A stretch of 32,635 bases of DNA, from positions 1 through 32,635 of the forward strand of contig JARCMD010000377.1 of NCBI GenBank assembly GCA_030248885.1. Direction: 5' to 3'. Shown here in pieces: positions 3,460-23,058 of the stretch (positions are counted from its first letter, which is position 1; every line of letters starts with the position of its first letter). The notes beneath the pieces are model-generated. The model was not told where the DNA came from. It saw nothing but the letters and a program-made list of their open reading frames with translations, and did not search any database. The stretch comes from Leptolyngbyaceae cyanobacterium MP9P1.79. GTDB taxonomy: Bacteria > Cyanobacteriota > Cyanobacteriia > JARCMD01. A program made the translations under genes and the position numbers.

Positions 3460-4380
3460 ATGACCCGCACTGCTCATGACCAGTTTGCCAAAAACTACCT
3501 CCGTGATCTCTTCGCCAACTCTGGCACTGTGCAGCTAGGGTATACCGTCACGAGTGAAGTGAAGGAGGTTGACCTTTATTTTCAGCCTAACCCAGACGCG
3601 ATCGAGGCTTTGCAAGCATTAGGATTACTGGGTCGGGTTGCTTCTACATTTTGCCTCATCGAACCCTACAGGAATGCAGTGCAGGTAGAACATGTGCAGG
3701 CTTGCCTAAGCAAGTTACTGGAGGCTTGTCTTCAGCAGCGCCGGGATGCCAAGCGCGATCGAGTTCCCGCCAAACAGGTGAGGCTACCACATCTTTGGAT
3801 TATGGCTCCAACAGCATCCCAAGCACTGATGCAGAGCTTTTGCGCTCAGGAGAGTGAGCAGTGGGGAGAAGGAGTTTACCTGTTGCCTGCCTCGCTGCGT
3901 ACAGCGATCGTTGTCCTTCATCAACTCCCCATAACTCTTGATACACTATGGTTACGGTTGTTGGGTCGCGGTTCTGTTCAGACCCAGGCAATTTCAGAAC
4001 TCATTGCCCTTTCCCAGGCTTACGCTTTTCGCAACGTTACCCTCGAACACCTTGCTAACCTTGACTTAATTATGAAGACTCGCCAAAAACGCCTCTCAAA
4101 GGACGAGCAGGAATTGCTCACCAATCTTTCCCCAGTCTACAAACTTTGGAAAGCAGAAACGATCGAGCAGGGACGACAAGAAGGACGACAAGAAGGACGA
4201 CAAGAAGGACGACAAGAAGGACGACAAGAAGGACGACAAGAAGGACGACAAGAAGGACGTGTTGAATCGCTCTCTCGAATACTTCCGGTGCTGTTACAGG
4301 TGGGGATGACGATCGAGCAAATTGCTGAACAACTCCAAGTAGATGTTGAAGTGGTCAGGCAGCTTGCTCAGAACACTTAA
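3460..4380 (+). CDS. Rpn/PD-(D/E)XK nuclease-like protein with GRQE repeat
   Basis: 306 residues; ATG at 3460. The opening (HDQFAKNYLRDLF), the EVKEVDLYFQP strand near residues 33-43 and the later LPHLWIMAPTAS segment resemble the Rpn/transposase-like PD-(D/E)XK proteins abundant in cyanobacteria. This family assignment is from memory of similar proteins, and I have not identified a complete catalytic set. After residue 237 a stretch of seven perfect GRQE units forms a charged, probably helical linker. The C-terminus (VGMTIEQIAEQLQVDVEVVRQ) looks like the short helix-turn-helix-like tail usual in this family. No clear Shine-Dalgarno is visible. A truncated copy of its 3' third follows at 4426. 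Confidence 0.75.
   Translation: MTRTAHDQFAKNYLRDLFANSGTVQLGYTVTSEVKEVDLYFQPNPDAIEALQALGLLGRVASTFCLIEPYRNAVQVEHVQACLSKLLEACLQQRRDAKRDRVPAKQVRLPHLWIMAPTASQALMQSFCAQESEQWGEGVYLLPASLRTAIVVLHQLPITLDTLWLRLLGRGSVQTQAISELIALSQAYAFRNVTLEHLANLDLIMKTRQKRLSKDEQELLTNLSPVYKLWKAETIEQGRQEGRQEGRQEGRQEGRQEGRQEGRQEGRVESLSRILPVLLQVGMTIEQIAEQLQVDVEVVRQLAQNT
4171..4260 (+). repeat. 12-bp tandem repeat (seven perfect units) inside the Rpn-like gene
   Basis: The unit GGACGACAAGAA is repeated seven times without a mismatch and runs into a partial eighth unit (GGACGT). Because 12 is divisible by 3, each unit encodes Gly-Arg-Gln-Glu and copy-number change would keep the frame. It looks prone to replication slippage. 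Confidence 0.95.
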
Positions 4381-10306: not shown

Positions 10307-10831
10307 TTAGGTGCGGTTGCCTTGGGTATTGAGTAGAGATTTAGCTCGATCGATTTCCTGGGGAGTTCCTTCCATAATCAGCAAAAAGCTGCCATTGGAA
10401 ACCTGCTGACTGTGAGTCTTAGCCTGCTCTGAGGTTAGTCCTAAGCCAAGCATCGCTCCCGTCAATCCACCTGCTGCTGTGCAAATTCCACCGCTCAGTA
10501 ACACAAAGGCGATCGTAGACGATAACGCCAGTGCGCCTACTCCCGGTAGAGCAATGAGTCCGGCCCCCAGCAGCAATCCAGTTGCACCCCCTGCAAAATT
10601 GCCAATCAAAAAGCCTTTTTTGAGTCCCGCTGCGGTGCCTGTGACCATGCCATGAGGGTTGGCAGGTAGCTTGGGCTGTAGGTTATTCTCGCCTAAGCCA
10701 TGACCCAGTAGGAAAATCTGTGCGATTGGCAAGCCTGAAAGAATGAGGTGATCGAGGGCTTGTCCTGCGGCTTCACGACTAGAAAACGTGCCGATCACCT
10801 GTCGGCGCTGGGTCAGAATGGTAGTTAGCAT
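10307..10831 (-). CDS. YflT-like general stress protein with glycine-rich hydrophobic core
   Basis: 174 residues; ATG at 10831-10829. Residues 10-45 (VIGTFSSREAAGQALDHLILSG) resemble the N-terminal fold of the general stress protein 17M/YflT family. About residues 72-132 are hydrophobic and Gly/Ala-rich, looking like two closely packed membrane or glycine-zipper helices. The C-terminus (SFLLIMEGTPQEIDRAKSLL) forms the second half of the ferredoxin-like fold. The combination is common in cyanobacterial stress proteins of unknown mechanism. No clear Shine-Dalgarno. The gene is probably monocistronic, because a minus-strand terminator (10937-10978) separates it from the P-II gene upstream. Confidence 0.75.
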   Translation of the reverse strand: MLTTILTQRRQVIGTFSSREAAGQALDHLILSGLPIAQIFLLGHGLGENNLQPKLPANPHGMVTGTAAGLKKGFLIGNFAGGATGLLLGAGLIALPGVGALALSSTIAFVLLSGGICTAAGGLTGAMLGLGLTSEQAKTHSQQVSNGSFLLIMEGTPQEIDRAKSLLNTQGNRT

Positions 10832-10936
10832 TGAATAATTCCAAAAGCGAGAGCTTTTTCTGTATCTTTAGCTACTATTCTATCTGTTTGTTTGCCCACG
10901 AATGGCACGATCTAGCACATGTCAGCAATTTTTGAC

Positions 10937-10978
10937 AAAAAAAACGATCGTAGGAAGGAGTAACTTACCCACGATCGC
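10937..10978 (-). terminator. Rho-independent terminator after the P-II gene
   Basis: Read on the minus strand, GCGATCGT and ACGATCG pair around an inner, imperfect GGGTAAG/CTCCTTCC region and are followed directly by eight T residues. It lies about 120 bases past the P-II stop codon and would end the permease/P-II transcript. Confidence 0.8.
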
Positions 10979-11100: not shown

Positions 11101-11496
11101 TTAGGAAAATGCCTCGCTGAGAGTAGCAGGTTCTTCGATCGTCAGCGCCACTTCATCCTCTTCACCTGTCCGAATCCGCACCGCTCTACTCACCGGAATC
11201 ACAAATAACTTACCGTCCCCAACGGTGTCTGTTCTGGCTGTTCTAACGATGGTGTCAACAACAGCATCGGTCATTTCATCATTCACCACAATTTCAATTC
11301 TGACCTTGGGTACAAAGTCAACCGTAAAAGGCTTTCCTTCCATGTTGAGGAGTCCAAGAAACGCCATGGGTCGTCCCTTCTGTCGTCCAAAGCCCTTTGC
11401 CCCGGTGACGGTCATGCCCTGAATACCGAGCTTGACCAACGCTTCCTTTACGGCACCCAGTTTAGTGGGCTGAATAATGGCAAGAATTAAGTTCAT
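11101..11496 (-). CDS. P-II family signal protein with altered T-loop
   Basis: 131 residues; canonical P-II is about 112. Start ATG 11496-11494, 12 bases after the small membrane gene. The P-II fold is clear: MTVTGAKGFGRQKG (28-41), IEIVVND, the B-loop TVGDGKLFVIPV and the C-loop VRIRTGEEDE are intact, so trimerisation and ATP/ADP binding are expected. The T-loop (42-59) reads RPMAFLGLLNMEGKPFTV, about six residues longer than the usual T-loop. It lacks the RYRGSEY-type motif with the Ser/Tyr modification sites, so a different partner is likely. A 20-residue acidic tail follows. Its operon position behind an amino-acid permease parallels amtB-glnK and suggests it gates that transporter. Confidence 0.88.
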   Translation of the reverse strand: MNLILAIIQPTKLGAVKEALVKLGIQGMTVTGAKGFGRQKGRPMAFLGLLNMEGKPFTVDFVPKVRIEIVVNDEMTDAVVDTIVRTARTDTVGDGKLFVIPVSRAVRIRTGEEDEVALTIEEPATLSEAFS

Positions 11497-11508
11497 GATG
11501 ACTGGTAT

Positions 11509-11724
11509 TTATGAATATCTTCGAGAGTCGATGTAAGAGCGTGTGTGCTGAACATAACGATGGTTTTTAAGATGGTTTAGAAGCTTTGGATGCATCGGAC
11601 TGATCGCGTAACGGATGCTCCAGATCAGCCGGCAAAATAGGGGCTTGCCTTTGATCAAGCTATCGCCAATGAGGTAAGCGAGTCCGGCGACGAAGAAGGC
11701 GATCGAAATGCCGATCGCTGTCAT
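11509..11724 (-). CDS. Small one-helix membrane protein in the permease/P-II operon
   Basis: 71 residues; ATG at 11724-11722, 33 bases after the permease stop and ending 12 bases before the P-II start. Residues 3-23 (AIGISIAFFVAGLAYLIGDS) form one membrane helix. The rest is basic, with many His, Arg and Lys, and probably cytoplasmic. No known family is recognised. Tight spacing between two clearly real genes argues that it is expressed with them. It may be a transporter subunit or an adaptor for the P-II protein; this is inference only. Confidence 0.65.
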   Translation of the reverse strand: MTAIGISIAFFVAGLAYLIGDSLIKGKPLFCRLIWSIRYAISPMHPKLLNHLKNHRYVQHTRSYIDSRRYS

Positions 11725-11757
11725 AGAGTTAGTTTTGGCGCTTCCTGCTCCAGTCAG

Positions 11758-13077
11758 TCAATAGTAAAAGATGCCGCAGACCATAAACGAATTTGTTGCT
11801 AAGCCCAACAGGGGAATGACGATCGTTTTGAAGGGATTATGCTCCTCATCTAGCAAGTGTCTCAGCGTTGCAATTAAGGTTACGCCACAGGTGATGCCGT
11901 AGAGCATAAATGTACCAATGTTGGAAACCAGCGTGACGATCGTGACATTATCCACACTCTGCACGGCATACGCCCCAATGAGGGCCGACAGTCCAGCTAA
12001 AAAATAGATGCCAATATGGGGTGTATTGTAGCGACCATGCAAAAATCCAAAGACTGCTGGCAATTCCCGATCGTTGCCCATGGCGTAGCTAATCCGTACG
12101 CCAGTTGACAGTGACGAAAGGGCTGTTCCAATCAATGCCATCACCACGGTACTGGCGATCGTAATTTGCAGCAAAAATCCATTGCCAAACAACAGAGTAT
12201 CCCCCAAAATCTTGGCAATGTCCCCGATCGGCGCACCTGATGAAAGTGCCGCCGCAAATCCAGTCACCGTTTTACCATCAATGGTGGCGGTATATTGACT
12301 ACCAATGAAGAAGTTGGCGGCAAAGTACTCAAAAAAGTAGCAAATACAGGCTTGAATAAACAGCGATAGAATCACACCTCCAGGAATATCCCGTTGCGGA
12401 TTAACTGCTTCTCCTGCCATGGCAGTCGCGGATTCAAATCCCACCAGGAGCAGAATGGCGATCGTCGCTTGATAAATTAATCCCAGCAAATCATGGGGAA
12501 CTACAACACTCAGGGCATTCGCATGTTCATAGGTGACATTGGGATGTCCCAAACGATACACAATCATCAACAATCCTAAAAATACTAATGATGTGATTTG
12601 CACAACATTGATAACGATGTTGACCAGTGTAGATCCCGTAACCCCGATCACGGCAATGCTACCTACTAATGCAGCAAAAATGAAACAGATTAAAGCTTTG
12701 CTAAACCAACCAGACGCAAAGTTAGGATTAAACAGCTGTCCAATATAAACGACGAGGGTTCCCATAAAGCTGATCATAATACCGGGATAAACCCAGTAAT
12801 AGAGATGGGCCGCCCAACCCGTCACAAACTTCGCTAGACGAGCTAAGCGGAAATGCTTGTGTTCTTCCTTCGCTAGAATTGCAGCCTCGGCATAGTAGTA
12901 AGAACTGCCTGCGCCCGCATCAGGATAGGCTTTGGAAAGTGTGGCATAGCAACTGGCCGTGAGCAGGGCAATGACAGTTGCGAGGGCGATCGCTGCCCAC
13001 ATATTTTTGGCAGAGTCGGGAGGAGCTTGCAGTTGGTAAGTTGTCCATAGAAAAGCGCCTGGTGCAATCAGCGCCAT
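11758..13077 (-). CDS. APC-superfamily amino-acid permease, N-terminus interrupted by a stop codon
   Basis: 439 residues from the ATG at 13077-13075. About eleven to twelve hydrophobic segments, the GFESATAMAGEAVNPQRDIP segment and the loop ISYAMGNDRELPAVFG identify an APC (amino acid-polyamine-organocation) transporter. The substrate is unknown. The frame continues upstream as LKPTLGLVGITINAM, which is the normal first part of TM1 in this family, but is stopped by a TAA at 13122-13120. Six codons before that lies an in-frame ATG (13140). The annotated start therefore cuts TM1 in half. A nonsense mutation, sequencing error or readthrough are all possible. First gene of an apparent operon with the one-helix protein and P-II. 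Confidence 0.85.
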   Translation of the reverse strand: MALIAPGAFLWTTYQLQAPPDSAKNMWAAIALATVIALLTASCYATLSKAYPDAGAGSSYYYAEAAILAKEEHKHFRLARLAKFVTGWAAHLYYWVYPGIMISFMGTLVVYIGQLFNPNFASGWFSKALICFIFAALVGSIAVIGVTGSTLVNIVINVVQITSLVFLGLLMIVYRLGHPNVTYEHANALSVVVPHDLLGLIYQATIAILLLVGFESATAMAGEAVNPQRDIPGGVILSLFIQACICYFFEYFAANFFIGSQYTATIDGKTVTGFAAALSSGAPIGDIAKILGDTLLFGNGFLLQITIASTVVMALIGTALSSLSTGVRISYAMGNDRELPAVFGFLHGRYNTPHIGIYFLAGLSALIGAYAVQSVDNVTIVTLVSNIGTFMLYGITCGVTLIATLRHLLDEEHNPFKTIVIPLLGLATNSFMVCGIFYY

Positions 13078-13140
13078 CGCGTTGATCGTAATCCCTACCA
13101 GTCCAAGTGTGGGCTTCAGTTAGCTACTTGACTGAGTCAT

Positions 13141-13504
13141 ATTTAGTTATTACATCTCTCAGTATTGTGAATATTATCTTGAGGGGGTGAAGATTCACAA
13201 GTCTGTATCTCACAATACGATTAGACTAGTATTCTCTGTAACTCCGTTGCAACTGTTGCCACACCTAGCTTTAATTGCAAAGCCAAGTCTTTATACTGTC
13301 TTGTAGCTTCTGATACAAATAGTTTCACTCCCTATTTCTACTATGTGTCAGGGTATATATGATTTAAAATAAGTCATTCAAAAAGTAATTCAAAGCAAGT
13401 TGCCATCACTGAATTTCAAATATTTTTGAAGCTATATTCCTTTAGTTGTCTGCTTTCGCATTAGTCAATTTGACGTTAATGGTTTCAGTCGCTGGAGAAG
13501 AACC
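13141..13504. other. Divergent promoter region, permease operon and PPK2-GSIII
   Basis: 364 bases between divergent transcripts. It contains the NtcA-type site at 13205-13218, a 12-bp palindrome GTGAAGATTCAC at about 13187-13198, and several A/T-rich -10-like hexamers (ATATTA at 13171-13176 for the leftward transcript, TATACT near 13291 for the rightward). No gene is seen. Confidence 0.6.
13205..13218. promoter_or_regulatory. NtcA-type binding site GTA-N8-TAC
   Basis: GTATCTCACAATAC matches the consensus GTA-N8-TAC of the global nitrogen regulator NtcA exactly. Leftwards, a TAATAT hexamer lies 28 bases away; the classical activated spacing is about 22, so the promoter architecture is not ideal. 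Rightwards, TAACTC begins 20 bases away and misses the TA-N3-T pattern by one base. It lies 65 bases from the upstream permease ATG and 286 bases from the PPK2 start. The nitrogen-related genes on both sides support the reading. Confidence 0.65.
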
Positions 13505-14479
13505 ATGGAATCCGATCCTATGAACGGGAAACATTCTGAAACTACGCATTCTGAAACTGCAACTGTAGAATTTCTTGCTCCATCATCAGATGATCCAATG
13601 GCAAAGGAGGAGAAGCGTAAAGGTAAGAAACATAAAAAGTCCAAACTCAAAGGCACAGAACTGACGGTTTCTCACCATCCCTCCGATCGCGAAGAAGCGG
13701 GTTCAGAACTTTCCGATAAAAAGTACGAAAAAGAGCTTGCCCAACTGCAAGTGGAACTGGTGAAACTCCAGTACTGGGTAAAGCACACAGGTGCGCGGAT
13801 TGTGATTCTGTTTGAAGGACGGGATGCCGCAGGGAAAGGTGGCACAATTAAGCGGATTACTGAACCCTTAAATCCGCGTGGTTGTCGGGTTGTGGCTCTG
13901 GGAACGCCAAGCGATCGGGAAAAAACTGAATGGTATTTTCAGCGATATGTAGTCCATCTACCCGCAGCAGGTGAAATTGTTTGCTTCGATCGCAGTTGGT
14001 ATAACCGTGCTGGAGTCGAGCATGTCATGGGATTTTGCACCAATGAACAGTATCAAGAATTTCTCCAGACCTGTCCTGAATTTGAGCGAATGCTGGTCAG
14101 ATCTGGAATCATTTTGCTGAAGTATTGGTTCTCAGTCAGTGATGATGAGCAGGAGCGCCGGTTTCAATCTCGCACGACTGATCCAGCCCGCCGCTGGAAG
14201 CTAAGCCCGATGGATTTGGAGTCACGCGATCGTTGGGTGGAATATTCCCAGGCGAAGGATGCTATGTTTGCTCATACCAATATTCCTGAAGCGCCCTGGT
14301 TCACTGTTGAAGCCGATGACAAAAAGCGGGCCCGCCTCAACTGCATCAGCCACGTTATCAGCAAAATTCCTTACGTGGATATGACTCCAGAACCGCTGAA
14401 GCTATCGCCGCGTAAGGCTGCTCCTGAGTACGTGCGGCCACCGCGCAACGAGCAGTTCTTTGTCCCTCAGCTCTATTAA
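13505..14479 (+). CDS. ppk2: Polyphosphate kinase 2 (PPK2) family protein
   Basis: 324 residues; ATG at 13505 with GGAG seven bases upstream. After a charged, Lys-rich N-terminal extension (about 70 residues) comes the PPK2 kinase core: Walker A GRDAAGKGG (105-113), Walker B DRSWYNRAGVE (162-172) and the Arg-rich lid RTTDPARRWKLSPMD from about residue 223. PPK2 enzymes transfer phosphate between polyphosphate and nucleotides. Whether this one is specific for NDP or NMP cannot be told with certainty, but the single domain and length suit class I. The stop codon overlaps an out-of-frame ATG (TAATG). GSIII follows within 100 bases, giving a link between phosphate reserve and nitrogen assimilation. 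Confidence 0.93.
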   Translation: MESDPMNGKHSETTHSETATVEFLAPSSDDPMAKEEKRKGKKHKKSKLKGTELTVSHHPSDREEAGSELSDKKYEKELAQLQVELVKLQYWVKHTGARIVILFEGRDAAGKGGTIKRITEPLNPRGCRVVALGTPSDREKTEWYFQRYVVHLPAAGEIVCFDRSWYNRAGVEHVMGFCTNEQYQEFLQTCPEFERMLVRSGIILLKYWFSVSDDEQERRFQSRTTDPARRWKLSPMDLESRDRWVEYSQAKDAMFAHTNIPEAPWFTVEADDKKRARLNCISHVISKIPYVDMTPEPLKLSPRKAAPEYVRPPRNEQFFVPQLY

Positions 14480-14561: not shown

Positions 14562-16733
14562 ACGAGTGGTAATGAACTTCGCTTCCAGGCAATTTGCCAA
14601 GTCACCGATCGTGAGAAACTTCCCCCGAAAACGCCTAACCGTTTAGAAGAGCTATGGGCGATCGATGTATTCACTCTGGGCAAAATGCAAGCATGTTTGC
14701 CTAAGGATGTATTTAAGTCGATCAAGAACACAATTCAGACGGGTGGCAAGCTGGATGTGTCGATCGCTGGGATCGTTGCCGCCGCCATGAAAGACTGGGC
14801 AATTTCCAAGGGCGCACTGTACTACGCCCACGTTTTTTATCCCATGACCAACATCACGGCTGAAAAGCATGATGGGTTTATCTCTGTGCAAAGCGATGGC
14901 TCGGCGATCACCGAATTTTCTGCCAAAGTGCTGGTGCAAGGCGAACCGGATGGTTCCTCCTTCCCCAGCGGCGGCATTCGCTCAACCTTTGAAGCCCGGG
15001 GCTACACCGCATGGGATGTTACCAGTCCTGCCTACGTAATGGAAACTGACAATGGATCTACTCTGTGCATTCCCACAGTGTTTATTTCGTGGACAGGGGA
15101 AGCGTTAGACAAGAAAACACCCTTGCTGCGCTCCAACGCAGCAATGAGCAAAGCCGCAACCCGACTACTGAAATTGCTGGGAAATACAGACGTGGCGACC
15201 GTCAACTCTAGCTGTGGCGCGGAGCAGGAGTACTTCTTGGTGGATGCCCACTTTGCCCATAGCCGTCCCGATATCTTGCTGACGGGTAGAACCCTATTTG
15301 GACGACCGGCTGCTAAAGGTCAACAGTTCGATGACCACTATTTTGGCGCAATTCCAGAGCGCGTGCAGGTCTTTATGCAGGATGTGGAAGAGCGTATGTA
15401 TCGCTTGGGGATTCCGGCTAAAACTCGCCATAACGAGGTGGCCCCTGGTCAGTTTGAGATCGCGCCATTTTTTGAGGCGGCAAATGTGGCCAGCGACCAC
15501 CAGCAAATGACGATGACCATCCTCAAAAACACGGCGAAGAAGCATGGCTTCATTTGTTTGTTGCATGAGAAGCCCTTTGCTGGCATCAATGGATCTGGGA
15601 AGCATGTCAACTGGTCAGTGGGCAATGCCACCCAGGGCAATCTACTTGATCCCGGTGACAATCCCCATACGAACCTGCAATTTTTGCTGTTCTGCGGGGC
15701 GGTGATTCGTGGGGTGCATAAGTATGGGCCACTGCTGCGCGCTGTGGTGGCAACTGCCAGTAATGACCATCGATTGGGTGCTAATGAGGCTCCCCCTGCT
15801 ATTATTTCAGTCTACCTGGGCGTTCAGCTTGAGGATGTGTTTGACCAGATTAAACGGGGCGATGTCAAAAGCTCGGCGTACGCGGGTGTGATGAGTTTAG
15901 GTATTCTAACGTTGCCGGAGTTCCCCAAAGATCCAGGCGATCGGAATCGCACGTCCCCCTTTGCTTTTACAGGTAATCGCTTTGAATTCCGGGCAGTTGG
16001 GGCTAACCAATCTGTTTCTGGGCCCTTAGTTGCGATGAATACAATTCTGACCGATTCGTTGATTTGGATGTCCGACCACTTAGAAGCTGAGTTGGCAAAA
16101 GGAACGGCGCTACAAGATGCGGCGTTTACCGTTCTCAAAGAAGTGATGGATAATCACAGTGCGGTTGTCTTTGGGGGCAATGGTTACTCGGAAGCCTGGC
16201 ACAAAATGGCTGTGGAGCGGGGGTTGTTAAACTTGCCCACCACCGCCGATGCATTGCCTGTTTTGAAAGAGAAGTACATTGAAGAACTGTTTGAACGAAC
16301 AGGAGTGCTGTCGGCTGCTGAACTGGAAAGCCGCTTTGATGTCTATGCAGAGCAGTACATTGGGGTCATTGAGATGGAAGCCAAGCTGGTAATCAATCTG
16401 GCAAAAACCGTGATTTATCCAGCGGCGTTCCGTTATTTATCAGAGCTTGCTGCCAGTATTTCCAACCTAAAACAAATTGGCATTGAGTTTGAGCAAGACA
16501 GTGCTGAAACCGTTGCTGCCTTGACTAAGCGGATGATGGACACGGTGAGCAAGTTGGATAATGCGATCGGCAACCATGATTTCGCTACTGTCGAAGAACA
16601 TATGCAACACTGCGCCAAAACCCTTCGCCCCCTAATGGATAAGGTGCGCGAGTATGCAGATGCGATCGAAGGAAATGTGGCGGACGATCTGTGGCCCCTG
16701 CCCAAGTATCGGGAGATGCTGTTTATTAAGTAA
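14562..16733 (+). CDS. glnN: Glutamine synthetase type III (GlnN), apparent ACG start
   Basis: 723 residues if begun at the ACG at 14562, which fits the usual GSIII length (about 724). The N-terminus then reads (M)SGNELRFQAICQVTDREKLPPK, the expected GSIII opening, and AAAGGAAAG sits at ribosome-site distance. The only conventional start in the open frame is a TTG at 14460, which would overlap PPK2 by 20 bases and add 34 unusual residues. GSIII signatures: AEKHDGFISVQSDG, GEPDGSSFPSGG, SSCGAEQEYFL, HNEVAPGQFEIAP, GSGKHVNWSVG, ATASNDHRLGANEAPP and FEFRAVGANQS. The enzyme makes glutamine from glutamate, ammonia and ATP in the cytoplasm. In cyanobacteria GlnN is typically induced under nitrogen deficiency through NtcA. 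Confidence 0.93.
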   Translation, partial: TSGNELRFQAICQVTDREKLPPKTPNRLEELWAIDVFTLGKMQACLPKDVFKSIKNTIQTGGKLDVSIAGIVAAAMKDWAISKGALYYAHVFYPMTNITAEKHDGFISVQSDGSAITEFSAKVLVQGEPDGSSFPSGGIRSTFEARGYTAWDVTSPAYVMETDNGSTLCIPTVFISWTGEALDKKTPLLRSNAAMSKAATRLLKLLGNTDVATVNSSCGAEQEYFLVDAHFAHSRPDILLTGRTLFGRPAAKGQQFDDHYFGAIPERVQVFMQDVEERMYRLGIPAKTRHNEVAPGQFEIAPFFEAANVASDHQQMTMTILKNTAKKHGFICLLHEKPFAGINGSGKHVNWSVGNATQGNLLDPGDNPHTNLQFLLFCGAVIRGVHKYGPLLRAVVATASNDHRLGANEAPPAIISVYLGVQLEDVFDQIKRGDVKSSAYAGVMSLGILTLPEFPKDPGDRNRTSPFAFTGNRFEFRAVGANQSVSGPLVAMNTILTDSLIWMSDHLEAELAKGTALQDAAFTVLKEVMDNHSAVVFGGNGYSEAWHKMAVERGLLNLPTTADALPVLKEKYIEELFERTGVLSAAELESRFDVYAEQYIGVIEMEAKLVINLAKTVIYPAAFRYLSELAASISNLKQIGIEFEQDSAETVAALTKRMMDTVSKLDNAIGNHDFATVEEHMQHCAKTLRPLMDKVREYADAIEGNVADDLWPLPKYREMLFIK

Positions 16734-20719: not shown

Positions 20720-21619
20720 ATGAATGCTCCCAAACGCAGCCGTGCCCGTGTACTTAGACCGGAAGGACTGAAGAAGCTTCGGGAACAGATACGATCGCAC
20801 GAAGCCGAAGAAAATTCAGGCTTTAAATACACGCTGGAACGATTGGGGGAGTTGACTGGACTCGATCCAGAGACAGTGAAAAATGTCCTGGATGGCAAAG
20901 GCTCCGATAAACGGACGATCGCCCGTTGCTTTGAATCTTTTGGGTTGACGTTGGAGGATAGCGATCACATTCCAGCAACGCAGGCAGTCGCTGCAACCGC
21001 TGATCCCAATTTTGTGGGACGGGATGAGGCGCTCATGGATCTGAATGCATTGGTCAGCCGCCAGGCAAAGGTGATCGTGATTCAGGCAAGGGGCGGCGTT
21101 GGGAAAACCACGTTGGCACGGAAGTATCTCCAGCAGGAGTTTGGTTCATTTTTGGAGTTTCCGATTGCCAAGGAGACAAAGGACATTGCTTCGATTGAGG
21201 TATTAATTGAAGAAAAGCTGCGACAACTGGGGGAAGAACCAGGGCGAGAATTTTTGGTGTCGCTCGATCGGCTCAAACGCAAGCTGCAAGCAGAACGCAT
21301 TGGGATCTTGATTGATAACCTGGAGCCTGCACTAGACTCAGCAGGCAAATTCATTGAGGCCCATCGTCGCTATGTGGAACTGCTGCGAGTGCTGAGTGAT
21401 CCGAGCGTCAAGTCACTTACCTTAATCACCAGTCGAGAACGCCTGCGAGAAGCGGATGTCACGGTGCAGCATTATGCGTTGAGAAGTTTGGATGTACAAG
21501 CCTGGGAGCAGTTTTTTCAGAGTCGCAATATCAATGTAGAAACTCCGGCGCTGGCTGCTTTGCACAATGCCTATGGGGAAATGCAAAGGCAATGGACATT
21601 CTCAGTGGGGCAGTGTTAG
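20720..21619 (+). CDS. STAND/NB-ARC NTPase, N-terminal half (frameshifted gene)
   Basis: 299 codons; ATG at 20720. Residues 36-82 (YTLERLGELTGLDPETVKNVLDG) look like the helix-turn-helix-like N-terminal domain seen in cyanobacterial STAND proteins. FVGRDEAL at 98 opens the NB-ARC module. The P-loop is ARGGVGKTT (123-131), the Walker B-like strand is IGILIDNLEP, and LITSRERL is the sensor-1 equivalent. The frame leaves the conserved sequence at LHNAYG (21560-21577) and ends in a non-homologous tail. The other frame resumes as GNAKAMDILSGA, restoring the usual GGNxxAL-type motif. One G is missing from a run that should have five (21575-21578). The gene should thus run from 20720 to 23058. Confidence 0.8.
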   Translation: MNAPKRSRARVLRPEGLKKLREQIRSHEAEENSGFKYTLERLGELTGLDPETVKNVLDGKGSDKRTIARCFESFGLTLEDSDHIPATQAVAATADPNFVGRDEALMDLNALVSRQAKVIVIQARGGVGKTTLARKYLQQEFGSFLEFPIAKETKDIASIEVLIEEKLRQLGEEPGREFLVSLDRLKRKLQAERIGILIDNLEPALDSAGKFIEAHRRYVELLRVLSDPSVKSLTLITSRERLREADVTVQHYALRSLDVQAWEQFFQSRNINVETPALAALHNAYGEMQRQWTFSVGQC

Positions 21620-23058
21620 AAGATTTTTCTGGTGATGTCGAAGCTTACTGGCAAGCAAATCAGGAAGATTTGTTTATTGAGCGAGACTTAGAAGATCTCG
21701 TCACGAAACAGTTCGATCGCTTGCAACAACTTGATTCAGATGCTTATAAATTACTCTGTCGCATGGGTTGCTATCGCTATCAAGATGTGCCAACAGTGCC
21801 CATTGCAGGACTCTTTTGCTTACTTTGGGATATCCCAGAAAATCGCCACCGACGAGTGATTAAGTCATTGCAGGATCGATCGCTAATTGATTTTGAAGAT
21901 GGAGAGTTTTGGTTGCATCCAGTAATCCGAGCAGAGGCAATAATTCGGTTGAGAGCAGGTGAAGAGTGGAACACAGCTAATCGAAAAGCAGCAGAGTTTT
22001 GGACTCAAAATATTAAGACTATCGAAACATTGAAGGAGGCATTAAGAGCTTTTGAGGCCTATCACCACTATATGATGATTAATGATTTTAATATGTCCGG
22101 AGTTGTAATTGTCAATCAGAGACCTAATCAGTGGGAAGGAAATGAACCTTTAGGTCGTTCATTTTACAGGTTAGGAGTACTTCAACAAACTATGGCTTCA
22201 ATACTTGAAATAGTACATAAAGTTAATCCTGGTTATGTTCTTAGTAGACTCTACAATATGCTAGGGGGTCTATTTTGGTTGACGGGGAGTCCTAACAAAG
22301 CTATAGAAGCTCACAAAAAATCAGGCTTAATATCGAAAGAATTTCTTGAAAATAATCAAGAATCTAAGCAAGATAGTTTTTGGTTTAAAAGATTGACTAG
22401 ATATGCCCTCTTCAATATAGGTTTATGCAATTTGGATCTGTGGGAACTTGAAATTTCACTACAGTATTTTGAAGAGGTTCTAGCTATTTTTGAGAAAGAT
22501 TGCTCTTCTGAAAATGGTTTCTATACCAATGAGGGTGGGATGGAAACCTGGTGCTGTCTGGCTTTCACAACTTCCTACTTGTCTGATAGAGAAAGAGCTT
22601 TCACTTGCGCTAATTTTGCATATAACTCAATAGCATCAGAAAAATTAGATTCTTGGGCCACGGGCTACTGTCCATTACTCTTAGGTTCCTCCTACAAGAA
22701 TTTGGGAGACTTTAAAAAAGCTTTTGAAATGTATGAAAAGGCTATGTCATATTCTGAAGAGAGTCACTACAAACAGGTAAGGGCTAAAGCTCTAACCGGT
22801 TTAGCTGAGCCTTACCGAGATCAGCTAGACTTTAAGAAAGCTATTTCACATCATTCAGAGTCTATTGAATATCTGAAAGAAATCAGCGCTAAATGTGATC
22901 TTGCTGAGGCTTTTTATCAGCTTGGACTGACCTATCAAGTAATGAGTAACTTTGAAGGAAGTGTAGAGAATTTTCAAGAGGCGATTCAGCTTTTTACTGA
23001 AATGGAAGCACCTAAGCAGGTGGAGAGAGTGAGGCAATCAATGCAAAATTGGAAATAG
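21592..23058 (+). CDS. STAND/NB-ARC NTPase, C-terminal winged-helix and TPR half (frameshifted gene)
   Basis: Open for 488 codons from the ATG at 21592, but the conserved sequence starts just upstream in this frame, so this ATG is a by-product of the frameshift. The first 130 residues (VTKQFDRLQQLDSDAYKLLC through SLIDFEDGEFWLHPVIRAEA) form the winged-helix arm of NB-ARC ATPases. The remainder contains TPR-like helix pairs, for example KNLGDFKKAFEMYEKAMSYS, YRDQLDFKKAISHHSESIEY and YQVMSNFEGSVENFQEAIQL near the end, the likely sensor. From about 22000 onward the base composition becomes distinctly A/T-richer than in the NTPase part. higB begins 7 bases after the stop. Confidence 0.8.
   Translation: MDILSGAVLEDFSGDVEAYWQANQEDLFIERDLEDLVTKQFDRLQQLDSDAYKLLCRMGCYRYQDVPTVPIAGLFCLLWDIPENRHRRVIKSLQDRSLIDFEDGEFWLHPVIRAEAIIRLRAGEEWNTANRKAAEFWTQNIKTIETLKEALRAFEAYHHYMMINDFNMSGVVIVNQRPNQWEGNEPLGRSFYRLGVLQQTMASILEIVHKVNPGYVLSRLYNMLGGLFWLTGSPNKAIEAHKKSGLISKEFLENNQESKQDSFWFKRLTRYALFNIGLCNLDLWELEISLQYFEEVLAIFEKDCSSENGFYTNEGGMETWCCLAFTTSYLSDRERAFTCANFAYNSIASEKLDSWATGYCPLLLGSSYKNLGDFKKAFEMYEKAMSYSEESHYKQVRAKALTGLAEPYRDQLDFKKAISHHSESIEYLKEISAKCDLAEAFYQLGLTYQVMSNFEGSVENFQEAIQLFTEMEAPKQVERVRQSMQNWK

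Follow-up and report, generated by a model that had tools for sequence, protein, structure and literature searches.

P-II proteins are the main nitrogen and energy sensors of bacteria. The AmtB-GlnK pair acts in both directions, which includes passing a signal on to DraG, and the PII-NG and PotN groups are P-II proteins linked to non-Amt transporters, of other types than the one dealt with here. The transporters known to be gated by P-II proteins are Amt (AmtB/Amt1), two ABC systems (NrtABCD and UrtABCDE) and SbtA (PMC10710835; PMC6603209), and according to a 2023 review the use of P-II seems to be restricted to transporters that are able to form trimers (PMC10710835).

We analysed 32,635 nucleotides of genomic DNA from Leptolyngbyaceae cyanobacterium MP9P1.79 (contig JARCMD010000377.1; hereafter the window), in which the gene of a P-II protein with an elongated T-loop lies next to that of an APC-type permease (Table 1). 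The literature that we searched for P-II proteins with APC permeases, for elongated T-loops and for PotN, mostly without subscription papers, holds no description of such a permease/P-II pair.

Results

Table 1. Features of the permease/P-II locus and its surroundings in the window
Feature	Position	Strand	Basis or remark
Uncharacterised 174-aa protein, downstream of the terminator	10307-10831	-	in many relatives beside the pair
Intrinsic terminator (hairpin and T8), downstream of the P-II gene	10936-10978	-	direct folding
Long-T-loop P-II gene	11101-11496	-	ORF, Pfam, alignment, tree
P-II T-loop, GRPMAFLGLLNMEGKPFTVDF	within 11101-11496	-	6-residue insertion
"71-residue one-helix protein", not a gene of its own	11509-11724	-	residues 1-30 are the last helix of the permease, 31-71 an out-of-frame artefact
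APC-type permease gene, full ancestral extent, interrupted here	11567-13140	-	judged from relatives
One-base frameshift in the permease tail	11634-11640	-	relatives read ..GKPLFLPxDxxHPLRD.. in frame
In-frame TGA, separating the permease from its last transmembrane helix and tail	11758-11760	-	relatives
In-frame TAA, permease codon 7 after the ATG at 13140	13120-13122	-	relatives have a sense codon
NtcA-type site GTAN8TAC (GTATTGTGAGATAC)	13205-13218	-	78 nt before the permease ATG
Second GTAN8TAC site	13303-13316	+	189 nt before the PPK2 ATG; nearer to PPK2 and GSIII
Polyphosphate kinase 2 (PPK2), divergent neighbour	13505-14479	+	Pfam
Type III glutamine synthetase (GSIII, GlnN-type), divergent neighbour	14562-16733	+	Pfam

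Elsewhere in the window an NB-ARC/TPR-like protein is apparently split, in a frameshift-like manner, into two overlapping ORFs in different frames (20720-23058, + strand), and a protein encoded at 3460-4380 (+ strand) has, towards the C-terminus, about eight GRQE repeats in tandem.

A P-II protein with an elongated T-loop

The 131-amino-acid product of the P-II gene scored 104.1 bits against the Pfam P-II profile (PF00543; cut-off 25). Its best likeness is to GlnB/GlnK, with about 50% identity to canonical GlnB, and it contains the loops GFGRQKG, VGDGKLFV and RIRTGEE, which a first-pass annotation, made from the sequence alone, had named as nucleotide-binding. The same annotation described a T-loop about six residues longer than usual and devoid of the modification residues, and the alignment agrees: the insertion is six residues relative to every canonical P-II compared, FLGLxxxEGKPF stands in place of the canonical YRGxEY, and S49 and Y51 have no equivalents. 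A modification residue in the T-loop is not a requirement for all P-II proteins. Across the family the T-loop follows the pattern GFGRQKGRPLAFLGL, four variable residues, K/Q-P-F or similar, then VDF.PK. Little or no variation occurs at residues G35, G37, G41, Q39, K64, G93-K96, R107 and R109; K64 is K58 in canonical numbering, in which the tested set was Q39, K58, G87-K90, R101 and R103. From established P-II knowledge we take these positions to be those that bind the nucleotide and 2-oxoglutarate; judged by the alignment, the binding residues of canonical P-II are retained.

The structural model of the protein (pLDDT 82) was good except for the C-terminus and the T-loop (pLDDT about 50-60 in the latter), and its best fold matches were to the PII of Synechococcus elongatus (ferredoxin-like monomer fold, Foldseek probability 1.00). 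In a maximum-likelihood tree the long-T-loop P-II proteins formed one monophyletic clade (support 100/99), outside which falls the canonical GlnB that the window genome also encodes. The dN/dS ratio of 0.04-0.05 indicates strong constraint.

Other distant cyanobacterial P-II paralogues (L012-L029) were considered and set aside: they have T-loops of ordinary length and no consistent transporter neighbour. One different non-canonical paralogue (L092, 5109-8318) lies near another APC-like membrane protein (TGVDYFSTLGYQPG), a neighbour not repeated in a relative (L175), and a further non-canonical paralogue (L095, 4054-6126) has in its vicinity a gene recognised by eye as that of a CorA-like transporter.

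The permease gene and its lesions

Three adjoining ORFs, for an APC permease, a 71-residue membrane protein and a P-II, had been proposed in the first-pass annotation. The gene order is correct, and so are the distances of 33 and 12 nt from one ORF to the next in the present sequence, but the middle ORF is not a gene, and the permease, although of the proposed family, is not intact from its start. The reading frame at 11758-13077 (- strand) belongs to AA_permease_2/AA_permease; the window copy scored 60.7 bits and an intact relative 66.8 bits against AA_permease_2 (cut-off 27). A sequence search for solved structures matched only CAT4 chains (E about 1e-6), and the single-chain permease model (14 close relatives) had a pLDDT of 37. 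In every relative in which the region is readable, the 71-residue stretch is fused in frame to the permease (520-559 aa), of which it forms the last helix and the cytosolic tail; residues 31-71 of the window's version match no relative and come from the one-base frameshift. We therefore rejected the separate one-helix protein, and with it the idea of a small docking subunit. With the ancestral stop codon the permease would end about 70 nt before the P-II gene.

Since the TGA and the frameshift detach the tail and the TAA falls at codon 7, the permease is broken in this assembly. A search of the whole window genome reported the same two stops and no second copy of the gene. Intact copies are present in many relatives, and the tail motif HP[LSM]R[DE] was found in 19 of 20 cyanobacterial permease copies; this conserved cytosolic tail of the permease itself is a candidate docking site for the P-II.

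Linkage across cyanobacteria

Long-T-loop P-II proteins (66-100% identity) were found in 11 of the 291 genomes of the class sampled, and a pattern scan of GTDB genomes added further carriers, which brought the total to 26 cyanobacterial genomes, each counted once; they include Phormidesmis priestleyi ULC007, Tychonema bourrellyi and several Microcoleus. In all 25 genomes where no contig end truncates the locus, the P-II gene is preceded at a distance of 13-289 nt by the 3' end of the permease gene, and this linkage spans at least six cyanobacterial families. In the 26th carrier (G281) the P-II gene is at the end of one contig and the 3' end of a permease gene at the end of another. Thus the trio expected by the first-pass annotation is conserved as a pair, the one-helix protein being no separate gene. 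With gaps as wide as 276-289 nt in a few genomes, co-transcription may not hold for every carrier. In one genome (G014; L082, 4187-5228) two tandem long-T-loop P-II genes follow one permease; their T-loops differ slightly, and it is possible that the two products form a heterotrimer.

Viewed from the other side, 17 genomes in a sample of 390 carry the permease, and only two of them have no visible P-II. In one (G330) the locus is cut by a contig end. In the other (G094) the permease gene has internal deletions and the P-II gene is gone, with the PPK2 and GSIII genes remaining. This co-loss, seen in one genome, is the strongest individual argument that the two genes share a function. The GSIII copy of G094 (L126) has a TAG shortly past its start.

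NtcA-type sites, terminator and neighbouring genes

GTAN8TAC is the consensus sequence of NtcA (PMC3898017). Of 23 non-redundant regions of 300 nt preceding the permease, 17 contain such a site, where dinucleotide shuffling (300 sets, maximum 5) gave an expectation of 1.3. A few sites are far upstream of the permease and could belong to the divergent genes; the upstream-region scan found none near the permease in the f23 family. A putative NtcA site at promoter distance from the permease is conserved. The glnN gene is regulated by NtcA in Synechocystis (PMC6316151). In the window the GSIII gene begins with ACG (at 14562) where its relatives have a start codon.

Downstream of the P-II gene, the terminator previously placed at 10937-10978 was confirmed: a hairpin (10944-10978) with T8 after it on the - strand had a folding energy of -19 kcal/mol (z -4.8). 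It was not listed by the terminator scan and became apparent by direct folding. The 174-aa protein encoded beyond it has a glycine-rich hydrophobic segment and no Pfam match; with 47-81% identity it is found downstream of the pair in many genomes, and its gene is probably a unit separate from the permease and P-II genes.

The permease family in other phyla

Searches for the permease family retrieved members with 44-58% identity from 10 of the 151 Chloroflexota genomes and from 6 of the 199 Actinomycetota genomes; 249 Pseudomonadota genomes yielded none. At the depth searched the family is set apart from other APC permeases. No long-T-loop P-II was found beside the Chloroflexota and Actinomycetota copies; instead, a Ser/Thr kinase and/or a PP2C phosphatase gene adjoins the permease in all 13 informative loci. 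In 10 of the 16 loci the fetched stretch contains a gene of the glutamine synthetase family (one of the three glutamine synthetase-like genes scanned exceeded the GlnA equivalog cut-off), and GSIII lies beside several cyanobacterial permease copies. Amt-like genes and genes of canonical P-II are also present at two actinobacterial loci, one of which has a GlnD-like ORF as well; Amt and GlnD were identified by eye and by mutual similarity. The P-II-linked cyanobacterial permeases form one clade, sister to the kinase-linked Chloroflexota copies, and the HP[LSM]R[DE] motif is absent from the kinase-linked copies.

Loci L159-L167, L169 and L171-L173 of these phyla are conserved clusters of APC permease, PP2C phosphatase, Ser/Thr kinase and glutamine synthetase-like genes in varying order. 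They may represent an undescribed nitrogen-control unit; no description of the cluster turned up in the literature searched, which mostly did not include subscription papers.

Discussion

The linkage in 25 of 25 informative genomes, together with the co-loss in G094, makes a permease controlled by P-II the most likely reading of the locus. We think it rather probable that the pair is a nitrogen-controlled transport unit, in which an NtcA-driven APC-type permease would be inhibited by its dedicated P-II at low 2-oxoglutarate; co-transcription, physical contact, the direction of control and the substrate are all points that we infer. The first-pass annotation had also proposed a P-II gate on an amino-acid permease, and that part of its proposal gains from the conserved linkage and co-loss, with the docking subunit removed and with the window's own permease apparently broken.

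The unit might work as follows. NtcA would switch on the permease and the P-II paralogue as one transcript, and the conserved nucleotide loops would let the P-II sense ATP/ADP and 2-oxoglutarate. Under ample nitrogen, with 2-oxoglutarate low and ADP higher, the long hydrophobic T-loop (PLAFLGL..) would bind to the permease from the cytosolic side, where the HPLRD/E tail may be the docking site, and stop transport; under nitrogen scarcity the P-II would let go. As for the substrate, an amino acid connected with glutamine synthetase, such as glutamine or glutamate, is most likely, and the association with glutamine synthetase genes suggests, weakly, one of these two. That signalling genes also adjoin the permease in other phyla suggests a transporter habitually under dedicated control. 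It must be noted that APC transporters are monomers or dimers, not trimers, so a simple three-fold P-II plug does not fit; this geometry is our main doubt about gating by P-II.

The P-II could be co-expressed with the permease and have its target elsewhere (GSIII, PPK2, or enzymes of arginine or carbon metabolism), the linkage then reflecting nothing but shared regulation by NtcA. P-II proteins do have many soluble targets (PMC6243067), and PPK2 and GSIII adjoin the pair in several genomes. We nevertheless regard this as unlikely, as four genomes (G014, G150, G238, G136) and the Microcoleus-type loci keep the P-II and permease with no PPK2 or GSIII in the fetched stretch, while G094 keeps the PPK2 and GSIII genes and has lost both the P-II and an intact permease. 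More improbable still, in our opinion, is that the permease serves as a sensor input which sequesters the P-II at the membrane, and that the P-II signals to soluble targets and does not block transport. The same linkage and co-loss data agree with such an arrangement, as does the analogy to AmtB-GlnK, which works in both directions, but no second target of the P-II was identified and the data apply equally to a transport block.

A separate question, compatible with a P-II-controlled permease in the relatives, concerns the window copy, where the locus is likely to be decaying, the permease being a pseudogene and the P-II a remnant. The permease gene, 1.5 kb long, contains two in-frame stops and a frameshift, and the adjoining GSIII has also lost its ATG start. 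Alternatively, the permease may be intact and the lesions due to errors of assembly: the genome is a draft of 552 contigs and 89% completeness, in which errors are possible, and broken permease copies occur in other draft genomes too (L047, L052). The rest of the permease frame is still under strong constraint (dN/dS 0.03-0.06), so either the gene was broken recently or the draft is wrong there. None of 71 ABC-transporter domains in the same genome contains a stop, which favours real decay and makes general assembly noise unlikely as the sole cause. With its permease apparently inactivated recently, the P-II of the window genome is probably an orphan for now.

A broader reading, to which we give somewhat less than even credence, is that one glutamine-synthetase-linked permease family has been fitted with interchangeable dedicated controllers. 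In Chloroflexota and Actinomycetota this would be a kinase/PP2C pair, and in cyanobacteria a long-T-loop P-II made for the task, which would be the first P-II to gate an amino-acid permease of the non-trimeric LeuT fold. The family would then be a natural swap experiment, with kinase/phosphatase control in two phyla and P-II in another. If true, a P-II with a T-loop design of its own acting on one APC permease would widen the rule that confines P-II to trimers (PMC10710835).

Comparison with known systems

The pair works like a transporter with a dedicated P-II, of which GlnK-AmtB and SbtB-SbtA are examples, but it is a member of neither system. It shares with GlnK-AmtB and PII-Amt1 (the amtB-glnK operon) a P-II gene next to, or immediately behind, that of a nitrogen-related membrane transporter, a probable control by nitrogen, and the nucleotide and 2-oxoglutarate residues. 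It differs from them in that the transporter is an APC permease (AA_permease_2/AA_permease) and not an Amt channel, that no three-fold transporter is involved, and that the T-loop has six additional residues and no YRG apex, S49 or Y51. In the cyanobacterial bicarbonate transporter SbtA, too, a dedicated P-II-type gene stands beside one secondary transporter; SbtB, however, is a divergent P-II-like protein, whereas the P-II described here is near to canonical GlnB, and the transporters are from different families. Canonical cyanobacterial GlnB has the same fold and effector-binding loops as our P-II, which belongs to a separate clade and carries the T-loop insertion. The permease, finally, matches the APC superfamily (Pfam AA_permease_2) at the family level but represents a subfamily of its own, marked by the conserved cytosolic tail and the adjoining signalling gene.
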